The notes beneath the pieces are model-generated. The model had not been told where the DNA came from. It was given only the letters and a program-made list of their open reading frames with translations, and made no database searches. Below are positions 4,473-26,131 of a stretch of 62,242 nt of DNA, piece after piece; the first letter of the stretch is position 1, and every line of letters begins with the position of its first letter. The DNA is taken from NCBI GenBank assembly GCA_944323735.1, contig CALUTO010000013.1, positions 1 to 62,242 on the forward strand. The letters are read 5' to 3'. Both the position numbers and the translations under genes were made by a program. Source of the DNA: Candidatus Gastranaerophilales bacterium. GTDB lineage: Bacteria > Cyanobacteriota > Vampirovibrionia > Gastranaerophilales > Gastranaerophilaceae.

Positions 4473-6329
4473 ATGACAACAACATTAATAGATATAAAAA
4501 AAGAACAGGAAAAAGCTAAAGAAAAAATAAAAGCCCAGGGACTCAGAGTGCTTGTATGCGCCGGCACAGGGTGTATTGCAAACGGCTCTCTTGAAGTTAT
4601 AAAACAGTTTGAAAAATTCGGTGCAGATGTAAGAACTCTCGAACACCATGACAAAATGACAGTAGTGCCCACAGGCTGCCACGGTTTTTGCGAAAAAGGT
4701 GTTCTTGTAATCATACCCGACCTTGATATAACATACGTAAAAGTCAAACCGGATGATGTAGAAGAAATAGTAGAAAGCCATATATTAAACAACAAACCCG
4801 TTGAAAGACTTTTATACACAGACCCGAAAACAGGCGAACACATTCACAGAAATGAAGATATCGGATTTTATAACCAGCAGACCAGAACATCTCTTGCAAA
4901 CTGCGGTCATATAAATGCGGAATCTCTTGATGAATCAATAGCAGTCGGGGGATATGCAGCATTGCACAAAGTTCTTGAAGAGAATAACCCTGAAGCCGTA
5001 ATCGAAGAAATTACGAAATCCGGATTAAGAGGAAGAGGAGGCGGAGGTTTCCCGACCGGTCTAAAATGGAAATTCACAGCAGCAAACAGAGGCGGGAAGA
5101 GTTACGTAGTCTGCAACGGTGATGAAGGCGACCCCGGTGCATTTATGGACAGAAGTATTATGGAAGGCGACCCGCATAAACTTCTTGAAGGTATGGCAAT
5201 TGCCGGTTTTGCTATAGGCGCAGATGAAGCTTATATATATGTAAGAGCTGAATACCCGATGGCTATTAAACGTTTAAGAATTGCTATAGCAGATGCTGAA
5301 AAAGCAGGATATCTTGGCAAAAACATAATGGGTTCTGATTTCAATTTTGAAATCCATATTAAAGAAGGTGCCGGTGCTTTTGTTTGCGGCGAAGAGACAG
5401 CACTTCTTGCATCTATAGAAGGTGAAAGAGGAATGCCAAGACCGAAACCGCCATTTCCTGCGAACAAAGGTTTATTCGGAAGACCGACACTTATTAACAA
5501 CGTTGAAACACTCGCTAACGTACCTGTTATCATCTCAAAAGGTGCTGAATGGTTCAGTTCCCTCGGTACAGAAAAATCAAAAGGCACAAAAACTTTTGCA
5601 CTCACGGGCGAAGTAAACAATACAGGTCTGATTGAAGTTCCCATGGGTACTACTTTAAGAGAAATTGTATTTGATATCGGCGGTGGTATCAGAAACGGCA
5701 AAAAGTTTAAAGCCGTTCAAATAGGCGGCCCATCTGGCGGCTGTCTCACAGAGGAACACCTTGATATTCCAATGGATTATGACAACCTTATAGCCGCAGG
5801 CGCAATGGTCGGTTCAGGCGGTCTTGTCGTAATGAACGAAGATACTTGTATTGTAGAAGTAGCAAGATTTTTCATGAACTTTACCCAGAATGAATCTTGC
5901 GGTAAATGTGTACCCTGCCGTGAAGGTACAAAAAATATGCTCAAAATCTTAGAAAAAATCGTCAAAGGCAGAGGCGAAATGAAAGATTTGGAAACGCTTG
6001 AAGAACTTGCACACGCAGTAAAAGACGGTTCTCTCTGCGGTCTCGGTAAAACTGCGCCAAATCCGGTTCTTTCCACTCTGAAGTATTTTAGAGATGAGTA
6101 TATAGCTCACATCAGAGACAAAAAATGTCCTGCAGGAGTTTGTACAGCTCTTAAAGTTATTGAAATTGACCCCGAACTTTGCAAAGGTTGTACAAAATGC
6201 GCAAGAAATTGTCCTGTCGGGGCAATCGAAGGAACAGTTAAAAATCCTCACAAAATTGACCAGACAAAATGTATTAAGTGCGGTGCTTGTTTGAATTCAT
6301 GCCCGTTCAAGGCTATCAAGCAAAAGTAA
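4473..6329 (+). CDS. hydB: [FeFe]-hydrogenase subunit HydB (NuoF-like, NADH/FMN)
   Basis: The flavin subunit that oxidises or reduces NAD(P). Domains in order: an N-terminal thioredoxin-like 2Fe-2S domain (C29, C34, C69, C73); the NuoF core with FMN/NADH glycine loop GRGGGGFPTG at 187-196, then NGDEGDPGAF and GAFVCGEETAL; a 4Fe-4S site ESCGKCVPCREGT; and a C-terminal two-cluster ferredoxin domain (CKGCTKCARNCPVG and CIKCGACLNSCPF). The 618-residue length and this order match HydB/HndC of trimeric, often electron-bifurcating hydrogenases. The start is three bases after the hydC stop and uses a GAGG inside the end of hydC. Confidence 0.95.
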   Translation: MTTTLIDIKKEQEKAKEKIKAQGLRVLVCAGTGCIANGSLEVIKQFEKFGADVRTLEHHDKMTVVPTGCHGFCEKGVLVIIPDLDITYVKVKPDDVEEIVESHILNNKPVERLLYTDPKTGEHIHRNEDIGFYNQQTRTSLANCGHINAESLDESIAVGGYAALHKVLEENNPEAVIEEITKSGLRGRGGGGFPTGLKWKFTAANRGGKSYVVCNGDEGDPGAFMDRSIMEGDPHKLLEGMAIAGFAIGADEAYIYVRAEYPMAIKRLRIAIADAEKAGYLGKNIMGSDFNFEIHIKEGAGAFVCGEETALLASIEGERGMPRPKPPFPANKGLFGRPTLINNVETLANVPVIISKGAEWFSSLGTEKSKGTKTFALTGEVNNTGLIEVPMGTTLREIVFDIGGGIRNGKKFKAVQIGGPSGGCLTEEHLDIPMDYDNLIAAGAMVGSGGLVVMNEDTCIVEVARFFMNFTQNESCGKCVPCREGTKNMLKILEKIVKGRGEMKDLETLEELAHAVKDGSLCGLGKTAPNPVLSTLKYFRDEYIAHIRDKKCPAGVCTALKVIEIDPELCKGCTKCARNCPVGAIEGTVKNPHKIDQTKCIKCGACLNSCPFKAIKQK

Positions 6330-6340
6330 GGATGTGACAA

Positions 6341-8122
6341 ATGACAGATAAAAAGACATTGATTATAAACGGAAAAGAAGTTGAATTTACAAACGAGCCT
6401 AATTTGCTCGAAGTTATAAGAAAAGCAGGATTTAAAGTTCCGACATTCTGCTACAGACCTGACCTGACACAGTTTGGTGCCTGCAGAATGTGCGTTGTTG
6501 AGGTTGAATACCCCAATGGCAGAGTTATGATTAACTCCTCCTGCACAATGCCGCCTGAAGCAGGTATTAAAGTTAAAACAAACACAGAGCGAATAAGAAG
6601 AATCAGAAAAACCGTTCTTGAACTGCTTCTTGCAAACCATGACAGAGAATGCACAACCTGTGAAAAATCAGGAAACTGCGAGCTTCAGGAATATGCTCAC
6701 GAATACGGCATAAAAGACATAAAATATGTTGAAAAAAGAAAAGATGCATATCTGCCGATTGACGACTCAAACCCGTCAATTGTCAGAGATCCGAACAAAT
6801 GTATTCTCTGCGGCGCATGTGTCAGAGCTTGCAGTGAATTTCAGGGACACAGCGTACTCGGTTTTGCAAACAGAGGTTCAAAAACAGTAGTACAGCCAAT
6901 AGCAGGAAAAAGCCTTGCAAGCGTAGACTGTGTATTTTGCGGACAGTGTCAGGCAGTCTGCCCGACAGGAGCACTGACCATAAAATCAGATGTTGAAACA
7001 GCATGGTCTCTGGTTAATAATCCGGAAATCAAAACAGCAGTACAAATTGCACCATCAGTCAGAGTTGCACTCGGTGAAATGTTCGGCTTAAAACCCGGTG
7101 AAAACACAATAGGACTTATTTATGCAGCATTGAAAGAAATCGGGTTTGATCTTGTGTTTGATACAAACTTCTCTGCTGACCTGACCATTATGGAAGAAGC
7201 ACATGAGTTTGTCCAAAGACTAAGCGAAAACAAAGATTTACCGCTTTTCACTTCTTGCTGCCCCGCATGGGTCCGATATCTTGAAACACAGCATCCGGAT
7301 ATGCTGAATCACCTCTCAAGCTGCAAATCACCGCAGGGTATGCTTTCACCTGTACTGAAAGAACTGGTACCGCAAAACTTTGAAGGAATTACAAAAGAAA
7401 ATCTCAAAGTAGTATCTATAATGCCCTGCACAGCTAAAAAAGTTGAGGCTAGACGCGCGCAGCTTATAAAAGACGGAAAACCCGAAACGGATGTTGTACT
7501 GACAACACAGGAACTCGGAAAAATGATAAAAGCTGCAGGTATTGACTTTGATACACTGGAACCCGCTAAAGCAGACTCACCTTTTGGAGGATATACTGGT
7601 GCCGGTACTATTTTCGGTGCCTCAGGCGGTGTTGCGGAGGCTGCAGTCAGAACAGCTTATACTTTTGCAACAGGTGAAGAACTATCAAATGTTGATATTA
7701 CACCACTCAGAGGTGTCGATAAAGGTTCAAGAACAAAAGATGCAGAAGTCGACATAAAAGGAACAAAAGTAAAAATCAGAGTCGTTTCAACCCTGAAAGA
7801 AGCAGAAAAATCTATCAAAGAAATCAAAAACGGAACAGCCGATTTTCAGCTTCTGGAAGTTATGGCTTGCCCCGGAGGATGTATAAACGGAGGCGGACAG
7901 CCTAGAAGCTGTGATGATATACATATTAAAGAAGAAAGGGCACAAGGGTTATACAAAGAGGATAGAGAGCTTCCTGTCAGAAAATCGCACCAGAATCCTG
8001 ACATTAAAAAGCTCTATGCTGAATATCTCGAAGCCCCCGGTTCACATAAAGCACATGAACTGCTGCACACGACATACAGTGATAAATTCACAGGCTCGTA
8101 TAAAGATTTAGTGAAGCACTAG
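6341..8122 (+). CDS. hydA: [FeFe]-hydrogenase catalytic subunit HydA
   Basis: Makes or consumes H2. The 593 residues hold: a 2Fe-2S domain (C37, C48, C51, C68); a His-Cys3 4Fe-4S site (H100, C104, C107, C113); two ferredoxin clusters (C154/157/160/164 and C197/200/203/207); and the H-cluster domain with all three signatures: TSCCPAW (C306 and C307), MPCTAKK (C363) and EVMACPGGCINGGGQP (C510, C514). All ligands and the proton-transfer cysteine are present, so the enzyme looks intact. With hydB and hydC it fits the trimeric group A3 type. The hydEFG maturation genes are not in this window. A strong terminator follows. Confidence 0.97.
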   Translation: MTDKKTLIINGKEVEFTNEPNLLEVIRKAGFKVPTFCYRPDLTQFGACRMCVVEVEYPNGRVMINSSCTMPPEAGIKVKTNTERIRRIRKTVLELLLANHDRECTTCEKSGNCELQEYAHEYGIKDIKYVEKRKDAYLPIDDSNPSIVRDPNKCILCGACVRACSEFQGHSVLGFANRGSKTVVQPIAGKSLASVDCVFCGQCQAVCPTGALTIKSDVETAWSLVNNPEIKTAVQIAPSVRVALGEMFGLKPGENTIGLIYAALKEIGFDLVFDTNFSADLTIMEEAHEFVQRLSENKDLPLFTSCCPAWVRYLETQHPDMLNHLSSCKSPQGMLSPVLKELVPQNFEGITKENLKVVSIMPCTAKKVEARRAQLIKDGKPETDVVLTTQELGKMIKAAGIDFDTLEPAKADSPFGGYTGAGTIFGASGGVAEAAVRTAYTFATGEELSNVDITPLRGVDKGSRTKDAEVDIKGTKVKIRVVSTLKEAEKSIKEIKNGTADFQLLEVMACPGGCINGGGQPRSCDDIHIKEERAQGLYKEDRELPVRKSHQNPDIKKLYAEYLEAPGSHKAHELLHTTYSDKFTGSYKDLVKH

Positions 8123-9767: not shown

Positions 9768-12392
9768 TCAGAATTGCGACAAACAGTTTTGCGGTGCAAC
9801 AATCGTTATAACTGCTTTGTTATTAAAATATTTGTTTGCAACCCTGATAACATCGCTTGCTGTGATAGATTCAATGAGGTCAGGATATTTGTTGATAAAA
9901 TCAAATCCCCTGCCTGATGCCTCAAACCATCCTAATGTCAAAGCTTTTTCAGAGTTAGTTTCCTGTGAAAGAATAAAGTTTCCTAAAATTCTGTCTTTTG
10001 CTTCACGAAGCTCTTTGTCTGAGATAAATTCTTTTTTCAGCAGGTTAACCTGTTTAAAGAGTTCGTTTTTGGAGTGCAGAGCTGTTTTCGGGCTGGTTCC
10101 TATAAACACACCGAACATACCGCTGTTCATATTGGGAACAAATACAGACCCTACCTGATAAGCAAGCCCCTGCTCATCTCTCAACCTGTTAAACAGTCGG
10201 GAACTCATACCCGAGCCTAAGATTGTATCAATAATTTGAAGGGTTGCGACATCTTTCTGGTTTGTAAGTCCGTCAGTACTCCATCCAATAACAATCCAGG
10301 CCGCTTCAGAAGGTTTTGCTTTTTTTATGGTGACTGATTTTGAAAGCGGTTTGAACTGGCTTTTGTAGTCTTTGTAGTTGACTTTTTTACATGTTTTGTT
10401 CTGAAACATGACTGTAAAATATTCAATTATTTCTTTATCATTAACATTTCCGTTGACAGAAATAACGATATTTTCAGGGTTTGAGAGTTGTGAATAGTAG
10501 TCCAGAATATCTTGTTTTGTAATGGTCGGAATGGTCTTTTCAAGAATTTTCCCTGTCCTGCCGTACGGCGTGTTTTTCCACAATTCAGTTCTGAATTCTT
10601 CAAATGCAACACCGGACGGATTGTCTCTCTGTTTTTCTATAGCAGAAAGTTTTTCTGATTTTATTTTTTCTATTTCAATTTCTTCGAAAGATGCATTGTT
10701 TATGATTTCTGACAGCAAATCCATGGTGAGTTTTATGTCATTTTTAGTCGTTTTTACAGAAATAACAAAACTGTCCGGCATATTTGCCGGTGAAATTTGA
10801 ATTCCGTTCTGTTCCATGATTTGCGATAAATCAATATTAGAATATTTATTTGTTCCTTTAAGCATTCCTGCTGCGCTAAGAGCCGCAACACCCGGTTTTT
10901 TTTCTGTAAGGGAGCCTCCTTTAACAAATATACGGATTGCCACAATATCATTAAGTGTATTATGGTTTATTATCAGGTTTGCGTTATTGGAGAGCTGATA
11001 TTGTGATATTGTTTTGTCCTGTTTTATCAGAGAAGCAGGAAGTTCTGTTTTGTTGGCAATCGGTTTTGTTGCTTCTGTTTTTGATTCTTGCGGTAATATA
11101 ATTGATATAACTGCATTTTCAGGATTTAAATATTTTTTTGCAACTTTTTCTATATCAGATTTTGTTACCTTCTGAATATTTTCTACATATTCATTATAAA
11201 AGCCGGAGTCATTAAACAAAAGTGTTGTATAGCCGAGCTCATTAGCTATATTTGAAGTAGATTCACGGGAATAGTATGTGTTTCTTTCTATAATACTTTT
11301 TGCTGTTTTTATGTCTGTTTCATCAAAACGCCCCTGTCTGATTTTTTCGATTTCAGAAAATATACTGCTTTTTAATTTTTCTACATTCTCAGGTTTAAAA
11401 TTTGCCTGAACAAAAAATATGCTGTCATCCTTCATAGACGAATGTCCGGAGGAAATACTGAAAGCAAGTTGTTTTTGTTCTTTGACAGAGTGATAGAGTT
11501 TTGAAGATCTGCCATCGCCGAGTATTGTCGCAAGAACATCAAGCGCATACTGATCTTTTTTGTCGCTTGCCTTAACCCCTCTGAATCCTATTAAAAGATA
11601 CCCTGTTTTTACATTATCATAAGAGACAACCTGCTGTTGTTTTGCAATATTTTTATCCATTTTATACACAGGAAGTTTTATTTTTTCTTTTTCTTCCATT
11701 GTAAATTCTTTTTTTACTGTATCAAGAGCCTCCTGTGTATTAACATCACCGACGATAACGGTTATCATATTTGAAGGTCTATACCAGAGATTGTAAAATT
11801 TCAGGATTTCATCTCTCGGAATAGTTTCTATAACCTGCCTTGTGCCTATAACTTTTCTTTTATACGGATGAGAAGAATAGAATTTTTCATTCATTTGTTC
11901 AAAAAGCCGGTTTTCTGTAGAATCCTGTGTTTTAGAAATTTCTTCGAGAACAACTTTTCTTTCTTTTTCCAGCTCTTTTCTGGGTATCAACGGATGGAGC
12001 AGCATGTCGGCATGCAACTCCATTGCTGTTTTAAAATGACGGGAAGGAATTGTTATGTAGTAGTGTGTAAAATCCTTGCTGGTGGCTGCATTTGTGTATG
12101 CACCTTTTGACTCAAGAATTTTGTCAAACTGTCCTGTCGGATATTTTTTTGTTCCTTTAAAGAACAAATGTTCAAGAAAATGCGCAACACCGTTATTCTT
12201 GTCATTTTCATTAATTGAGCCTGTTTTTATCCATGTGTCAATTGTGACAATCGGATTGTCATGAACTTCTTTTATAATGACGGTTTGGCCGTTGTCAAGT
12301 TTGAAGGTGGAAAAATCTTCCGCCAAAACAGATATACAAGTAGTAAAGACAAAAATAAAAATAAAGAAAAATGTTTTATTAATATATTTCAT
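9768..12392 (-). CDS. M16 family zinc peptidase, two-domain, secreted
   Basis: An 874-residue secreted or periplasmic peptidase. A signal peptide (NKTFFFIFIFVFTTCISVLA) precedes the first M16 domain, which has the inverted zinc motif HFLEH (H71, E74, H75) and the downstream glutamate region ERKVVLEE. The second half repeats the M16 fold (KGGSLTEKKPGVAALSAAGML) without HxxEH, as usual for the inactive partner domain. The arrangement is that of pitrilysin-like two-half M16 enzymes. The gene is upstream of smpB on the same strand with a 38-base gap, so read-through is possible. A divergent gene starts 141 bases away. Confidence 0.92.
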   Translation of the reverse strand: MKYINKTFFFIFIFVFTTCISVLAEDFSTFKLDNGQTVIIKEVHDNPIVTIDTWIKTGSINENDKNNGVAHFLEHLFFKGTKKYPTGQFDKILESKGAYTNAATSKDFTHYYITIPSRHFKTAMELHADMLLHPLIPRKELEKERKVVLEEISKTQDSTENRLFEQMNEKFYSSHPYKRKVIGTRQVIETIPRDEILKFYNLWYRPSNMITVIVGDVNTQEALDTVKKEFTMEEKEKIKLPVYKMDKNIAKQQQVVSYDNVKTGYLLIGFRGVKASDKKDQYALDVLATILGDGRSSKLYHSVKEQKQLAFSISSGHSSMKDDSIFFVQANFKPENVEKLKSSIFSEIEKIRQGRFDETDIKTAKSIIERNTYYSRESTSNIANELGYTTLLFNDSGFYNEYVENIQKVTKSDIEKVAKKYLNPENAVISIILPQESKTEATKPIANKTELPASLIKQDKTISQYQLSNNANLIINHNTLNDIVAIRIFVKGGSLTEKKPGVAALSAAGMLKGTNKYSNIDLSQIMEQNGIQISPANMPDSFVISVKTTKNDIKLTMDLLSEIINNASFEEIEIEKIKSEKLSAIEKQRDNPSGVAFEEFRTELWKNTPYGRTGKILEKTIPTITKQDILDYYSQLSNPENIVISVNGNVNDKEIIEYFTVMFQNKTCKKVNYKDYKSQFKPLSKSVTIKKAKPSEAAWIVIGWSTDGLTNQKDVATLQIIDTILGSGMSSRLFNRLRDEQGLAYQVGSVFVPNMNSGMFGVFIGTSPKTALHSKNELFKQVNLLKKEFISDKELREAKDRILGNFILSQETNSEKALTLGWFEASGRGFDFINKYPDLIESITASDVIRVANKYFNNKAVITIVAPQNCLSQF

Positions 12393-12533
12393 GTAAACCC
12401 CTTTGAATTTATTCTGATTTCACCAAAAATTATACTATATAAAAACAAAGATTAATAATACTGTAGCCATGGCTATTTTTATATTACTCTTTTATCCAAT
12501 GGTTTTTTATTCTGATTTGTTTAGAATACGGGT

Positions 12534-14138
12534 ATGTTTAATTATTTTATCGGGAACAAAATGAGTTATAATGATTGTGCTGTTCAGGGTAGCTGCAGCG
12601 TGGATCCTCTTGTTTATTCACTAATAGAGGTTTTGTTATATGAACTAAAACAGGTTACATATTATTTATTAAAAATGCAGGAACTCGGATACGAAAACCG
12701 GTTTTTGAAAGACAAGATTATAAAATATTTATCTTTGATAATTTTAGGTTATGAATTTAACCGCAAAGAATTTGAGGACATAATAAAAGATATTCACAGA
12801 GAAAAAGAAGAGGTTCAAAAAATTTTTATAAAAATTTGTGAGGATAAAAATTTGGACTGCCAGATTTTAAAGTCTCCTCTGAAACTTGATAAATTCAATT
12901 TTTCTGCGTTGATAAATGAAGGTGAAAAACAGGCGTTGCTGAGAAGTAAAACATTGAGCAGTGCAAATAAAAACCTGACAGAAATTATTTTACAGCTGAT
13001 AAAAAGCGCAAGTATGAGACTTGTAGAATTAAAAGCCTATACATCTGACACAGATGAGGATGAGAATGCAATATTGAAACTTTTTAACAGTTTGAATTTT
13101 ACTACACTCACCTCTGCAAAGCTTGTGAAAAGAATAAACGAGTTTGCAAAAATAAATTTTGAAATACATCAAAAACTTCATAAAGCAAGAGAAGAATATT
13201 TCGGAAAAATAAGGCTCATAGAGGTTTCGTGCAGCGTAAAAAAAGGACCTGCAATACTTGCATCAGGTCAAAATTTAAAAGACTTTGAATTACTGCTTAA
13301 AGCCGTGAAAGACACGGATATAAACGTATATACACATGACAGCCTTATTGTTGCTCACTCTTTTCCCAAATTTGACAAATACAAAAATCTTGCAGGTCAT
13401 TTTCAAAAAAGTCTTGATAACTTGCAAATGGATTTCGAGTTGTTCAAAGGCGCAATCTTAATAACAAAAAACTCCCAGCAAAAACTGGACCGGCTGATGC
13501 GTGGAAGAATTTTTACAACAAACGAGCTATCCGGCAAAGGCATGTCAAAAATTACAGACAACAATTTTGCCCCCATAATAGAAGCCGCAAAAGAAGCAAA
13601 AGGATTCATCGAAGAGACAAATTTTCGTTCAATTCGTGTCGGTTACGATGAAGAAAAGGTTATGAGCGACATAGAACGAATAATCAACGGGATAAAACAA
13701 CAGAAAATAGAACATCTTTTTATCATAGGCTTAATCAATCATTCACTGTTTTCATCAGAGTATTTTAAGCATATAGTAAACGAATTGCCTGAAAAAACTT
13801 TTGCAATATCAACGGTAATAGATGCAGACAATGATAATATTCTGCACCTGAACTCATTTTTTAATACATCTCTTGTATACAAAATTCTTGACAAATTAAA
13901 ACAGAGCATAGATTTCGAAAAATTTCCGGTAACGGTTTTTTTAACCAGATGCAACCTTCATACAATATCGCATTTGTTCAGCCTGCGGCATCTTGGTGTA
14001 AAAAATATTTTCCTTCCCGTGTGTTCTGCAGATATAATCACGCCGAATATGGTAAATTTTTTGTCCGACAAATTCGGCTTTCTGAAAACTACATCATACC
14101 CTGAAGCTGATTTAAAAAAAGTCATTGATATACACTAA
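12534..14138 (+). CDS. Degenerate hybrid-cluster-protein (Hcp) homologue lacking metal ligands
   Basis: The 534 residues follow the Hcp (hydroxylamine reductase/NO reductase) fold end to end. The core GPAILASG-x-x-LKD (238-250) is followed by NVYTHDSLIVAHSFPKFDKY (264-283), GAILITKNS (306-314), RIFTTNELSG (325-334) and a C-terminal LGVKNIFLP...LSDKFG. The ligand positions are changed: MFCxQC at the N terminus is MFNYFI; TTNC is TKNS; and the GGCDG, LACGK and GQCNDAY motifs read GLINH, VIDAD and LNSFFNT. Only C15 and C21 of the N-terminal cluster remain. The fold is kept but the hybrid cluster cannot be. The ATG at 12534 is supported because it aligns with the family's first residues. Confidence 0.8.
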   Translation: MFNYFIGNKMSYNDCAVQGSCSVDPLVYSLIEVLLYELKQVTYYLLKMQELGYENRFLKDKIIKYLSLIILGYEFNRKEFEDIIKDIHREKEEVQKIFIKICEDKNLDCQILKSPLKLDKFNFSALINEGEKQALLRSKTLSSANKNLTEIILQLIKSASMRLVELKAYTSDTDEDENAILKLFNSLNFTTLTSAKLVKRINEFAKINFEIHQKLHKAREEYFGKIRLIEVSCSVKKGPAILASGQNLKDFELLLKAVKDTDINVYTHDSLIVAHSFPKFDKYKNLAGHFQKSLDNLQMDFELFKGAILITKNSQQKLDRLMRGRIFTTNELSGKGMSKITDNNFAPIIEAAKEAKGFIEETNFRSIRVGYDEEKVMSDIERIINGIKQQKIEHLFIIGLINHSLFSSEYFKHIVNELPEKTFAISTVIDADNDNILHLNSFFNTSLVYKILDKLKQSIDFEKFPVTVFLTRCNLHTISHLFSLRHLGVKNIFLPVCSADIITPNMVNFLSDKFGFLKTTSYPEADLKKVIDIH

Positions 14139-20735: not shown

Positions 20736-23700
20736 ATGAGTAAAGCGAAAAGAAAGCATTTGATAGCTTCGCTGTTAATGCTTAGCTTGGGTTCTTGTCC
20801 TGCAATGGCTTCTACAATTCCGATAAACGCTGCAGTACCAAACAGCGTTGGCGCTTCATTTATGTTGATGAAAACAGCAATGTAAACGAATTTACGGTCG
20901 GACGTGTAGAAGGGTGGACAGGAACAAATCAGGGAGCCGTTGTGAATTATTATTCGGGTAAAGACCTGATACTGAATGCGGCAGATGGTGCTGTACAGGA
21001 ATACGTAAATAACAAAGCAGGATACGATATCGGCGGCGCTATTTATAACAGTCAACTTGCCAACCCTGAAGCAAAAGTTGTAATAAACGGTGATTCATAT
21101 TTTTCGGGAAATACGGCAAACAGAGCCGGTGCTATATATAATGATGGTGGTTTCGAATTTAACGGAAACGTTACCTTTGACAAAAACATCGCAACAGGTG
21201 CATCCGGAGCACCGGGTGGTGGTGCCATCCTGAATGCAGATGGTACAGTAAGTTTTCAGGAAGGCTCTACTGTTATTTTCTCTAACAACGAAGCAACAGG
21301 TGACGGCGGTGCTATCCTGAATGCAACTACACTCACTGACAGAACTAACAGCTTTGACTTAACAAAAGTTGATTCTGTAAAATTTGAGAAAAATACAGCT
21401 AAAGGAAACGGTGGTGCTGTTGCAAATATCGAGTTTATTGATGCAGATGGAACATTCAAAGCAAATAATGCAATATTTTCTGAAAATGGCGCAGCTAATG
21501 GCGGTGCTATTTACAACGACTCTATTGCAGAGCTGACCGATTCAGAATTTATTGGCAATACCTCCTCAACATACGGCGGTGCTATTATGTCTACAGAAGG
21601 TTCCGACCTGACTATCACAAATGGAACTTTCACTGAAAATAAAGTTATTGATAATGAAAAAGCATCATACGGCGGTGCTATTTTCAACAAGGGCAAAATG
21701 GAAGTAAGCGGAAACTTCTCCGGTAACGAAGCCGGAAGAGGCGGCGCTATTTATAACTACACAACAGCAGAAACAACAATTAAAGAAGACACGGTTTTTG
21801 AAAACAATAAATCTACCTACGGTCACGGTAGTGCTGTATATACATTTAACGGCATGACAATTGAAGACGGTGTACAATTCAAAAACAACCACGCAAACTG
21901 GGGTGGTGCACTTGCTGTCGAACTTAGAAAATCGGATACAATGCCAATGCCTGAAAAGGACACAGTTACTATTGGTAAAAATGTTGTGTTTGAAGGCAAT
22001 ACATCAGATGCCGGCGGTGCTGCTATCGTAAATACAAACGGAAAAATAGAAATAGCTGACGGTGCACAGTTTATTGAAAACACATCAGGTGCGGGCGGCG
22101 GTGCTATCTATAATACTATGGATACAGACCCTACCTCAGGTGATGCTGTATCATCCGCTATCACTCTGGGTTCCGCAACTTTTACGGATAACTTAACAAC
22201 CGGAGACGGCGGTGCTATCTATAATGACGACAAATCAACAGTAACTATTACAGGTAAGACAACATTCAGCGGTAACAATGCAACCGGCAAGGGCGGTGCT
22301 ATTTCAAATGCTGCTGACAGCGTTATAGCTCTTGACACGGCTACAGGTAATATAACATTCACCGGAAACACTACCGGTGCAGAAGGTGCGAAAGTGCTTA
22401 ACGATATCAACACTGACGGTACTGTTAATATTACAGGAGATGAAAACACTGTTTCTGTTAACACTATCACTGGTTCAAATACAGGTATAATCAATAAAAC
22501 TGGCAACAACACTCTCGCTTTGAACGACAACAACAGCGGTTTCCTTGGAAAATTCACACAGACTGCAGGTAAGACCGAAGTTCTAAAAGAATTTTTCGGC
22601 GGCACCAGCACTGTATCAAACAGCTCTGTTGACATGAAAGACGGTTCTTCAGTTGTTGCCGATTCTGAAATAATCCTGAATTCCAACGGTGCTATGAATA
22701 TTGAAGAAGGTGCTAATGTAAATATTGCCGGTTCTGTTACGGGTACAGACGTAAAAGGTGTTGTCAATAACAGCGGAAATATTTATATCAATAATGGCGG
22801 TAGCTTGAATGCTGATATCAATCAGACAGATAACGGTTCTATTACGGTTTATAATGGCGCTACCTTCGGTACATTGTCAGATGAAAATTCAGCGATTGCT
22901 GCAGGCTCTTTGACTGTTAAAGATGGGGCTATTATTGACGGAATTGTTGAAGTCACAGAAGCCGTCTCTCTTGATATTGACGGTCGTCATGTGGTCTTTG
23001 ATCAGACTGGTTTAAAAATCGAATCCGGTTCTGGCATTGGACATATCACAAATGAAGGTACATTCAATCTTGGAAATGCAGTTATTGGAGTTGAAGATTC
23101 CGGATTGAATGATGATATCACTCTTTCAAATGGTTCATATCTTTCACCGGTTACAGAAGATGCTAAAGTAATCAACCTTGGCGACAGTGTAACAGGTGAA
23201 GGCGAAAATCCGACTATTACATATTCATCGGATGCTGTTACTAAAGCAGAGCACACATTGAACGTAAACAAAGACGCAACTCTGAAACTTGCACCGACAA
23301 AAGGTAATAACTTTGAATTAAATTCCAAAGTTACCTCTGCTGACGGCGAGGGAAAGGTTCTCGTTGATCAGATAAAAGTTAAAAATCCGAATTATGTTGA
23401 TGATGCAACTACTCCGGATGAGGAGGAATTTATTGAGCAGGGTGTCGGAACAGTCACTATCAACTCTGACAACAGCGGATTCAAAGGTAACTTCCTACAG
23501 AATATGGGTAATGTTATTCTTGCAGCCGATGCAAAATTCTTTGGCGGTCAAAACAAAATCGACGGCGGCTCCGTAACAGTTCAGAAAGACGCTGTATTAA
23601 CCGGTGCAGACGATAATGCAACACAGGTGACCGGAGGCTCTTTGACTCTTCAAGACGGTGCAATTCTTGATAAGAACGTTACTGTAACAACAGACGATAA

Positions 23701-26131
23701 TTCTTACGGTACCGTAAATCTCTACAACGCTATCAAAGGCGAAACAGGTGAAGACGGTATTACAAGAATCAGCGCAGACAGCATTGCCAACGGAAATGAC
23801 GGCACATTGACTTATGTAAATTCTGATGACTCAGAAAAAATAAGTATCACTAACGGTGCCGGCTTAGGCTTGTTTAACGGTGTAAGAGTCGAAGGCGATT
23901 CACTTGCATTACAGCAGGATAAAGGTGTAAGAGATCTGACATTCGGAAACGGCTCAGGCTCTGAAACAAACAGCATCGTATTAAACGAAAACACAAAATT
24001 AACTTACCGTGATGGCGCTTACATAAAAGATGATTCTACAGTCGACATGAAAGACGGTGCATCATTAAATCTAGCAAATAACACAACCGATGTTACATAC
24101 AATCCGATTATCTCGGGAACGGCAAATTCTACAATAAACAAAACAGGCAACGGTTCAACTGTTATAGCTTCCGCTCTTGACAAATTTACAGGTAATGTGA
24201 ATGTCTTAGGCGGTGCATTAGAACTTGCCACAGCAGAAGATAAAACATTTAATAACTTGAATGTTCAAAATGCTGACTTCCATTCAGTATCTAACATTGG
24301 TGTAGAAGGTGCTGAAGGTAACGGCAAAGTAAATATTGAAAATTCAAACTTCTCTGTAGACAAAACTCTGGAAGCAATGGCAGAGGTAAATATTGATGGT
24401 TCTAATGTAAATATTGCAGAGAATCTTGGCGGTGCTGACACTACTATCACCGATTCTACAGTTAATGTCGGCAAAGAAATGTCTACAAATGACTTGAATG
24501 TTACAAATTCAACATTGAATGTAGCATCTAATTTGTATTCCGATAACACCGTTCTGGATGCTGTAAATGCAACAATCGGCGGAAATCTTGATGCAGAAAA
24601 TCTCACAGCGCAGAATGGTACAAACCTTACTGTTGCAGGTGATGTTTCCGCTGCTGACTCTGCATTCACCGATTCAACAGTCAATCTTAACGGAAAGAAT
24701 TCCTCTTTCAATTCTTTGATTGTTAACGGTTCAACTTTGAACAATATGACGAATATGACTGTCGGAAACGACCTTATATTCGGCGCAGGTGCCGACGGTG
24801 CAAATTCAACGCTGAATATGACAAACGGCACTGTTAACACAATTACAGCAAACAATACAGTATTGAACAGTGACCTGAATATAGCCTTCGACGTTGACCC
24901 GTCTAAGGGCTATGCTATGGATTCGATACAGACAAACACATTTACCGACAACGGAAATCAGTTGATAGTCGGTGGTATCAACTTTGTTTCTTCACCGATT
25001 GACAGAAATTTTGCGGTTGATGCTTCAAAATTCATCAACTCCGGTGACGGTAATGTTGCAAGCTTTGGTGAATCAAGCTTCCTTGCTAACACTCATTTAG
25101 GTCAATACCTGATGAGTACGGGTACAGGCGGCGGCTCTGTTATCGCCGGAAGTCTGCAGTCTATTAACCCGCAGATGTACAGAGGACAGGTTGCTACTGT
25201 TGCAAGCTATATGAACCAGCTTGTTGTTAACAATATGCTCTTTGACCATATGGAAGTCATTACAAGACAGATGATGGCTCAGGAACGTACGGCTAACAAA
25301 TACTCAGCAACCGAACCGCTCTTTGCTCCTTATCAATACAGTGCAAAAGACGGTACTCTCTGGTACAAAGCTTATGCTAACTTTGAACGTCTTTCTATGA
25401 CTCAAGGTTTGAGCGTTGGCAACAATGCTTACGGTTCTTTAATCGGTGCTGACTTCCCTCTCGTTGAGTTAGAGAACGGATGGAAAATTATACCTACCGC
25501 ATATGTTGCATACAACGGTGCACACCAGCACTTTAACGGTGTAAGTATGTATCAAAACGGCGGTCAAATCGGTGCAATGGGTACCGCATACAAAGGTGAT
25601 TTCCTTACTTCATTGTTAGTATACGGCGGCGGTTATGCAAACGACATGAATGTTAACAATGCTGCATTCGGAAGCGCATCAGACACTACAGGAAACTGGT
25701 TTGCAGGTGTTGCTTCAAAAACCGCATATAACTTCCATGTTGCAAAAGACTTCATTGTTCAGCCTACAGCTCTCGTTTCATACAATATGTTCGGAAACCA
25801 GAACTGGCACTCTAACTTCGGTGCAATGGGGATGAATGCCGGATTTATGAACGGTATTAATATCGCCCCCGGTTTGAACTTAATACTTAATAAGAAAACA
25901 TGGAGTCTCTACGCAACTGTTCAGTATATGTATAATATAATGGGCGGTGTTGACGGAAGAGCCGGAAATGTTACACTTGATGGTGTAAGAATGAGACACG
26001 GATATCTTGAATATGGTATCGGTGCTACAAAAACCTTCAAGGATAGACTCACTTCTTATTTCCAGATTACACTGAGAAACGTTGGCAGAACCGGTATCGG
26101 TTTCCAATTCGGACTAAACTGGAAAATATAA
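20736..26131 (+). CDS. Pmp-like autotransporter, signal peptide out of frame with body
   Basis: A surface protein with a long passenger and a C-terminal outer-membrane barrel. ATG at 20736 (AGGAG upstream) starts a perfect signal peptide (KHLIASLLMLSLGSCPAMAS) but that frame stops at 20883. The rest reads on in the -1 frame to 26131. One extra base near 20853 would join them as NSVG-GFIYVDENS and give about 1798 residues. The first 550 residues of the body hold some fifteen GGAIYN-type repeats with F-x-x-N partners, the pattern of chlamydial Pmp proteins. A long beta-helix rich in Asn, Thr and Val follows. The last 270 residues (from LWYKAYANFERLS) form the barrel, ending GFQFGLNWKI. Confidence 0.88.

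Follow-up and report, generated by a model that had tools for sequence, protein, structure and literature searches.

A hybrid-cluster protein paralog lacking the hybrid-cluster ligands in the Gastranaerophilales, with a possible thiol-redox role

The window analyzed here is the whole 62,242-nucleotide stretch of contig CALUTO010000013.1 (assembly GCA_944323735.1) from a Candidatus Gastranaerophilales bacterium. At 12534–14138 on the plus strand it holds an uninterrupted reading frame for a 534-residue homolog of the hybrid-cluster protein (Hcp), an iron–sulfur enzyme of nitric-oxide defense. We propose the name HcpL for this protein and for the clade of ligand-poor Hcp paralogs in the order Gastranaerophilales to which it belongs. 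The hcpL start codon is backed by an M-x-N start common among homologs and by conservation of the surrounding DNA in four congeners. The features of the locus are as follows.

9768–12392, minus strand: tandem-domain M16 (insulinase family) peptidase, the divergent neighbor
12393–12533, no strand assigned: divergent intergenic region of 141 bp that separates hcpL from the M16 peptidase gene (three congeners have a similar one)
12534–14138, plus strand: hcpL, cluster-free Hcp paralog, 534 aa (ORF, profiles, predicted structure)
12540–12551, plus strand: codons N3 to I6, spanning the former cubane C3 and C6, both replaced (alignment)
12576–12578, plus strand: C15, a kept cubane cysteine (alignment)
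12594–12596, plus strand: C21, a kept cubane cysteine (alignment)
12837–12839, plus strand: C102, gained (present in 70 of 78 family members)
13269–13271, plus strand: Q246 at the hybrid-cluster His ligand (alignment)
13341–13343, plus strand: S270 at the first Glu ligand (alignment)
13473–13475, plus strand: S314 replacing the TTNC-motif Cys ligand (alignment)
13734–13736, plus strand: I401 at the persulfide-Cys ligand of motif GGCDG (alignment)
13818–13820, plus strand: I429 replacing the LACGK-motif Cys ligand (alignment)
13857–13859, plus strand: F442 replacing the GQCND-motif Cys ligand (alignment)
13950–13955, plus strand: C473 (gained), then N474 at the seventh-ligand Glu (alignment)
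14022–14024, plus strand: C497, a gained cysteine (73 of 78 family members)

A functional tie between hcpL and the M16 peptidase gene was considered but set aside, the two being linked solely in the window's own sub-clade. Elsewhere in the window, genes for HydB- and HydA-like subunits of an NADH-linked [FeFe]-hydrogenase lie upstream of the locus (4473–8122, plus strand), and a 1778-residue protein with Chlamydia-type polymorphic membrane protein repeats, its C terminus autotransporter-like by eye, is encoded at 20795–26131 on the plus strand.

HcpL matched the Pfam Prismane profile (PF03063) with an E value of 4.7e-33 and 115.1 bits, above the gathering threshold of 27 bits, and the NCBIfam hydroxylamine reductase model TIGR01703 with an E value of 1.1e-68 and 232.1 bits, below the curated cut-off of 360.8; its sequence matched solved Hcp structures with E values of 1e-34 to 1e-23. 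An AlphaFold2 model built from an alignment of 63 sequences (pLDDT 88.6, pTM 0.89) has the full-length, three-domain Hcp fold, and residues 1–20 are its sole stretch with pLDDT below 50. The top solved-structure matches to this model were all Hcps (VIA-align Z of 30.5–31.2 over 499–512 residues). Because profiles and structure both match Hcp, the homology is full-length rather than due to chance, and the predicted model places the window protein in the Prismane/Hcp fold superfamily. Full-length homology had been claimed from the sequence alone, and it stands; two of the motifs quoted for it were loose, GPAILASG being only partly shared. Judged by sequence, HcpL nonetheless lies outside the TIGR01703 equivalog in the enzyme sense, its score falling short of the cut-off, its seven hybrid-cluster ligands being absent and its set of four cubane cysteines being incomplete. 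A relationship to the Ni,Fe-CO dehydrogenases was considered and rejected, since these ranked below Hcp (VIA-align Z of about 15–16).

HcpL resembles the class I/II Hcps (TIGR01703; Desulfovibrio vulgaris 1e1d, E. coli 7de4, M. thermolithotrophicus 8cnr) in full-length fold and ancestry, in length (534 residues against about 510–553) and in YTH and other glycine-rich motifs. Unlike them, it has none of the seven hybrid ligands, only two of the four cubane cysteines, and new cysteines at C102, C473 and C497, and many of its relatives carry a glutaredoxin operon, in contrast to class I and III hcp, which frequently stand alone (PMC10210160). The seven-ligand set is conserved throughout Hcp classes I–III, and class III Hcp, which is shorter by about 100 residues in its middle region, still keeps all metal ligands (PMC10502027). 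With class III Hcp (M. marburgensis 7e0l) HcpL has the C-terminal two-thirds in common (Z of about 29 over about 406 residues); unlike class III, it has an N-terminal domain of full extent and has lost every hybrid-cluster ligand. The likeness to CODH-II and CooS-V is more distant than that to Hcp. CODH holds a Ni-Fe-S C-cluster, or a hybrid cluster in CooS-V; the ligands of these clusters are all absent from HcpL. HcpL is a variant within a known fold family and no new kind of system. A literature search for Hcp in Melainabacteria or Gastranaerophilales, or for Hcp pseudoenzymes, found no paper, which does not prove that none exists.

The fate of the metal ligands was read from an alignment of the window protein with 28 canonical Hcps. 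We located the ligand columns by the motifs of this genome's own canonical Hcp, which established knowledge of Hcp structures ties to the ligands. In this alignment HcpL retains none of the seven hybrid-cluster ligands (one His, two Glu, four Cys) and two of the four N-terminal cubane cysteines, C15 and C21. The sequence-only reading had named the four hybrid-cluster cysteines and two cubane cysteines as replaced; the alignment bears this out and enlarges the loss to seven of seven, since the His and both Glu ligands are gone as well. The alternative that the cysteines are shifted but present was rejected, because the protein has only seven cysteines (15, 21, 102, 109, 233, 473 and 497), of which just C15 and C21 fall on ligand columns; the nearest non-ligand cysteine to such a column is C473, which adjoins the position where the seventh ligand, a glutamate, used to be. 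That HcpL has lost the hybrid cluster is near certain, and the cluster is presumably absent in the cell as well. These data support the view that the window protein is an Hcp homolog unable to hold the hybrid cluster as it is known.

The altered sites are shared by relatives. Among 78 aligned family members, no hybrid-cluster ligand is kept in 52, one in 19, two in 6 and three, the maximum, in a single protein. The seventh-ligand position, N474 in the window protein, is mostly Asp in relatives, and position 3 is Asn in 48 of 83 ligand-poor homologs. C15 and C21 are jointly present in 68 of the 78 members and jointly absent in seven, one of which is a fragment.

In a tree of 71 sequences, 38 family members form one clade. 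When ten cyanobacterial Hcps served as the outgroup, all ligand-poor proteins sampled, from the window's family and two other Gastranaerophilales families, shared one side of a 100/100 branch; opposite stood the canonical and cyanobacterial Hcps, 28 in number. The same split was recovered after removal of the ligand columns. The window protein thus falls in the HcpL clade, apart from canonical Hcp, with the caution that long branches demand. Within the genus, hcpL dN/dS was 0.035–0.070 where dS could be estimated (many dS values were saturated), comparable to the 0.043–0.048 of canonical Hcp; hcpL is under purifying selection.

Partly degraded forms occur in two sister families. The protein at L041:800–2446 (genome G049) keeps all four cubane cysteines and three of the seven hybrid ligands (a Glu and two Cys) and scores 374 bits, just above the TIGR01703 cut-off; it is possibly an evolutionary intermediate. 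In L058 and L059, C15/C21 remain along with one Glu and one Cys. The very diverged proteins at L050:5951–7600 and L060:6072–7712, from another family of the order, keep two hybrid-cluster cysteines (the persulfide Cys and the next) and are without C15, C21, C473 and C497. These forms fit a stepwise loss of ligands.

An intact canonical hcp does lie elsewhere in the window's genome, on contig C15, with all 11 checked ligand positions present, and all three congeners tested (81–82% identity) have the ligand-poor copy. TIGR01703 was matched in 255 of 264 genomes of the window's family, and about 89 reach the cut-off, as counted from the table of matches. About 254 of the 264 (about 96%) carry HcpL and about 89 a canonical Hcp; the former number is 254 rather than 255 because G214 appears to have the canonical gene only. 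A renewed search with an HcpL profile found no copy in ten family genomes without a TIGR01703 or P0001 match, namely the nine unmatched by TIGR01703 and G034, which is only 63% complete. Most HcpL genomes lack canonical Hcp. Among 292 genomes sampled from the phylum, every full-length copy below the cut-off, in the matches listed, came from the window's family. These counts apply within the Cyanobacteriota; beyond the phylum, one pattern scan reached close relatives only. In G011 the canonical hcp (L071:342–1913) has one in-frame TAA and the cluster-free paralog is intact. Mutually diverged cluster-free paralogs also stand in tandem, three at L037:8620–13485 (G014) and two at L038:429–3688 (G018).

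The intact frame had been taken from the sequence as a sign that the gene is not decaying, and the selection data agree. Although every cluster ligand is gone and the gene is occasionally absent within the family, a decaying pseudogene or functionless drifting duplicate is highly improbable and was rejected, given the intact frame, the low within-genus dN/dS, family-wide retention, the gained and conserved residues, and the operon linkage described below.

Three cysteine positions that are not conserved cysteines in canonical Hcp, C102, C473 and C497, are occupied in the window protein. C473 is found in 74 of 78 family members; it occurs together with C497 in 73, and four members have neither. 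In the predicted secondary structure, C473 lies shortly past strand 466–469 and C497 just past strand 491–494, so that the model would put both at the C-terminal ends of presumed neighboring strands of the third domain, beside the old seventh ligand. C473 and/or C497 are missing from five relatives that retain the gene; the pair is therefore dispensable in some relatives. On the tree, joint loss of the two agreed in two of three phylogenetic pairs, which is not significant, with very few independent events. Nearly fixed non-cysteine residues in the HcpL clade are P25, D300, R323 and G324.

Glutaredoxin genes adjoin hcpL in many relatives. Of the 82 hcpL loci for which 400 bp or more of upstream sequence were available, 43 have a glutaredoxin gene immediately upstream on the same strand, with gaps of −23 to 60 bp (mostly 0–12; median about 5 bp). 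These genomes have just one to three glutaredoxin genes (PF00462), and chance adjacency is therefore unlikely. Within one clade of 39 HcpL proteins, 38 are accompanied by type g (GST_N/glutaredoxin-like), and five loci elsewhere in the tree have type g2 (GrxC-like). The presence of two types in separate clades suggests that the pairing arose more than once. In one sub-clade the loci have ribosomal neighbors in common (rpsL/rpsG, identified from sequence), and the glutaredoxin is retained at several loci without them. No glutaredoxin gene lies beside hcpL in the window or in its own sub-clade; the single glutaredoxin gene of this genome is elsewhere, on contig C8, and the genome also encodes a glutathione synthetase-like gene and thioredoxin reductase. 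At L046:6851–8356 (G024), a gene on the same strand ends 46 bp before hcpL; going by its N-terminal sequence, its product looks like a glutamate-synthase-small-subunit/NfnB-like oxidoreductase, possibly an alternative electron donor.

The reading that we favor, and hold tentatively at somewhat under even odds, is that HcpL is a cluster-free Hcp paralog turned glutaredoxin-coupled thiol protein. HcpL would have branched off canonical Hcp no later than the last ancestor shared by several Gastranaerophilales families. It would have given up the hybrid cluster, as well as half of the cubane site in most members, and been kept in cluster-free form. The C473/C497 pair, which by topology may sit where the former cluster cavity opens, would form a reversible disulfide or carry an NO or persulfide group, and would be reduced by the glutaredoxin that many relatives encode in the same operon and the window genome at its separate locus. 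We infer the proximity and redox activity of the two cysteines, and the role of glutaredoxin as donor, from the evidence above. Metal chemistry may well have been swapped for thiol chemistry. More speculatively, HcpL may bind a substrate disulfide, S-nitrosothiol or persulfide, a guess that follows from the link of Hcp to NO metabolism (PMC10210160).

The sequence-only reading had interpreted HcpL as a non-decaying Hcp homolog without its hybrid cluster, serving in binding, scaffolding or regulation. Its first half holds, and nothing points to the second: gained paired cysteines and a repeated glutaredoxin operon favor a thiol-redox role. We give roughly a one-in-four standing to a cluster-free shell of that kind, which might, for example, partner canonical Hcp or take up a small molecule where the cluster used to sit. 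Purifying selection on the entire fold despite the loss of all hybrid ligands is consistent with it, and the newly fixed R323-G324 and D300 could make a binding pocket; yet most HcpL genomes have no canonical Hcp to serve as partner, and a shell leaves the paired new cysteines and the operon unexplained.

A different metal centre, such as [2Fe-2S] or Zn held by C15, C21, C102 and/or C473 and C497, seems slightly less probable again. Glutaredoxins are known Fe-S carriers, and the one encoded beside hcpL would then act as such, a role with which CPYS-type glutaredoxins among the operon copies are consistent, as are the joint retention of C15/C21 and the gain of C102 in most family members. No four-ligand set is conserved among the aligned members, however, and the gene is kept in the seven rows (the fragment included) that lack both C15 and C21. 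The low pLDDT of residues 1–20 also argues against such a site, though an apo prediction cannot decide the matter.

On the glutaredoxin-coupled reading in its boldest form, which we regard as rather unlikely as a whole, an Hcp lineage replaced its iron–sulfur–oxygen cluster by a cysteine pair in the same cavity, giving a metal-free, glutaredoxin-driven enzyme. A whole bacterial family would then retain this enzyme more consistently than Hcp, and sister families would still harbor partly degraded intermediates. Speculatively, such an enzyme would act on, for example, NO, S-nitrosothiols, persulfides or a disulfide substrate. The glutaredoxin operon offers HcpL a concrete, assayable partner, and relatives with partial ligand sets, such as L041, open the path of loss to direct testing. 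Hcp has been studied for its unique cluster; a near-universal cluster-free paralog in a family of gut bacteria indicates that the fold can be reused without it. A hydroxylamine reductase label on such genes would mislead readings of nitrogen metabolism in uncultured gut bacteria.
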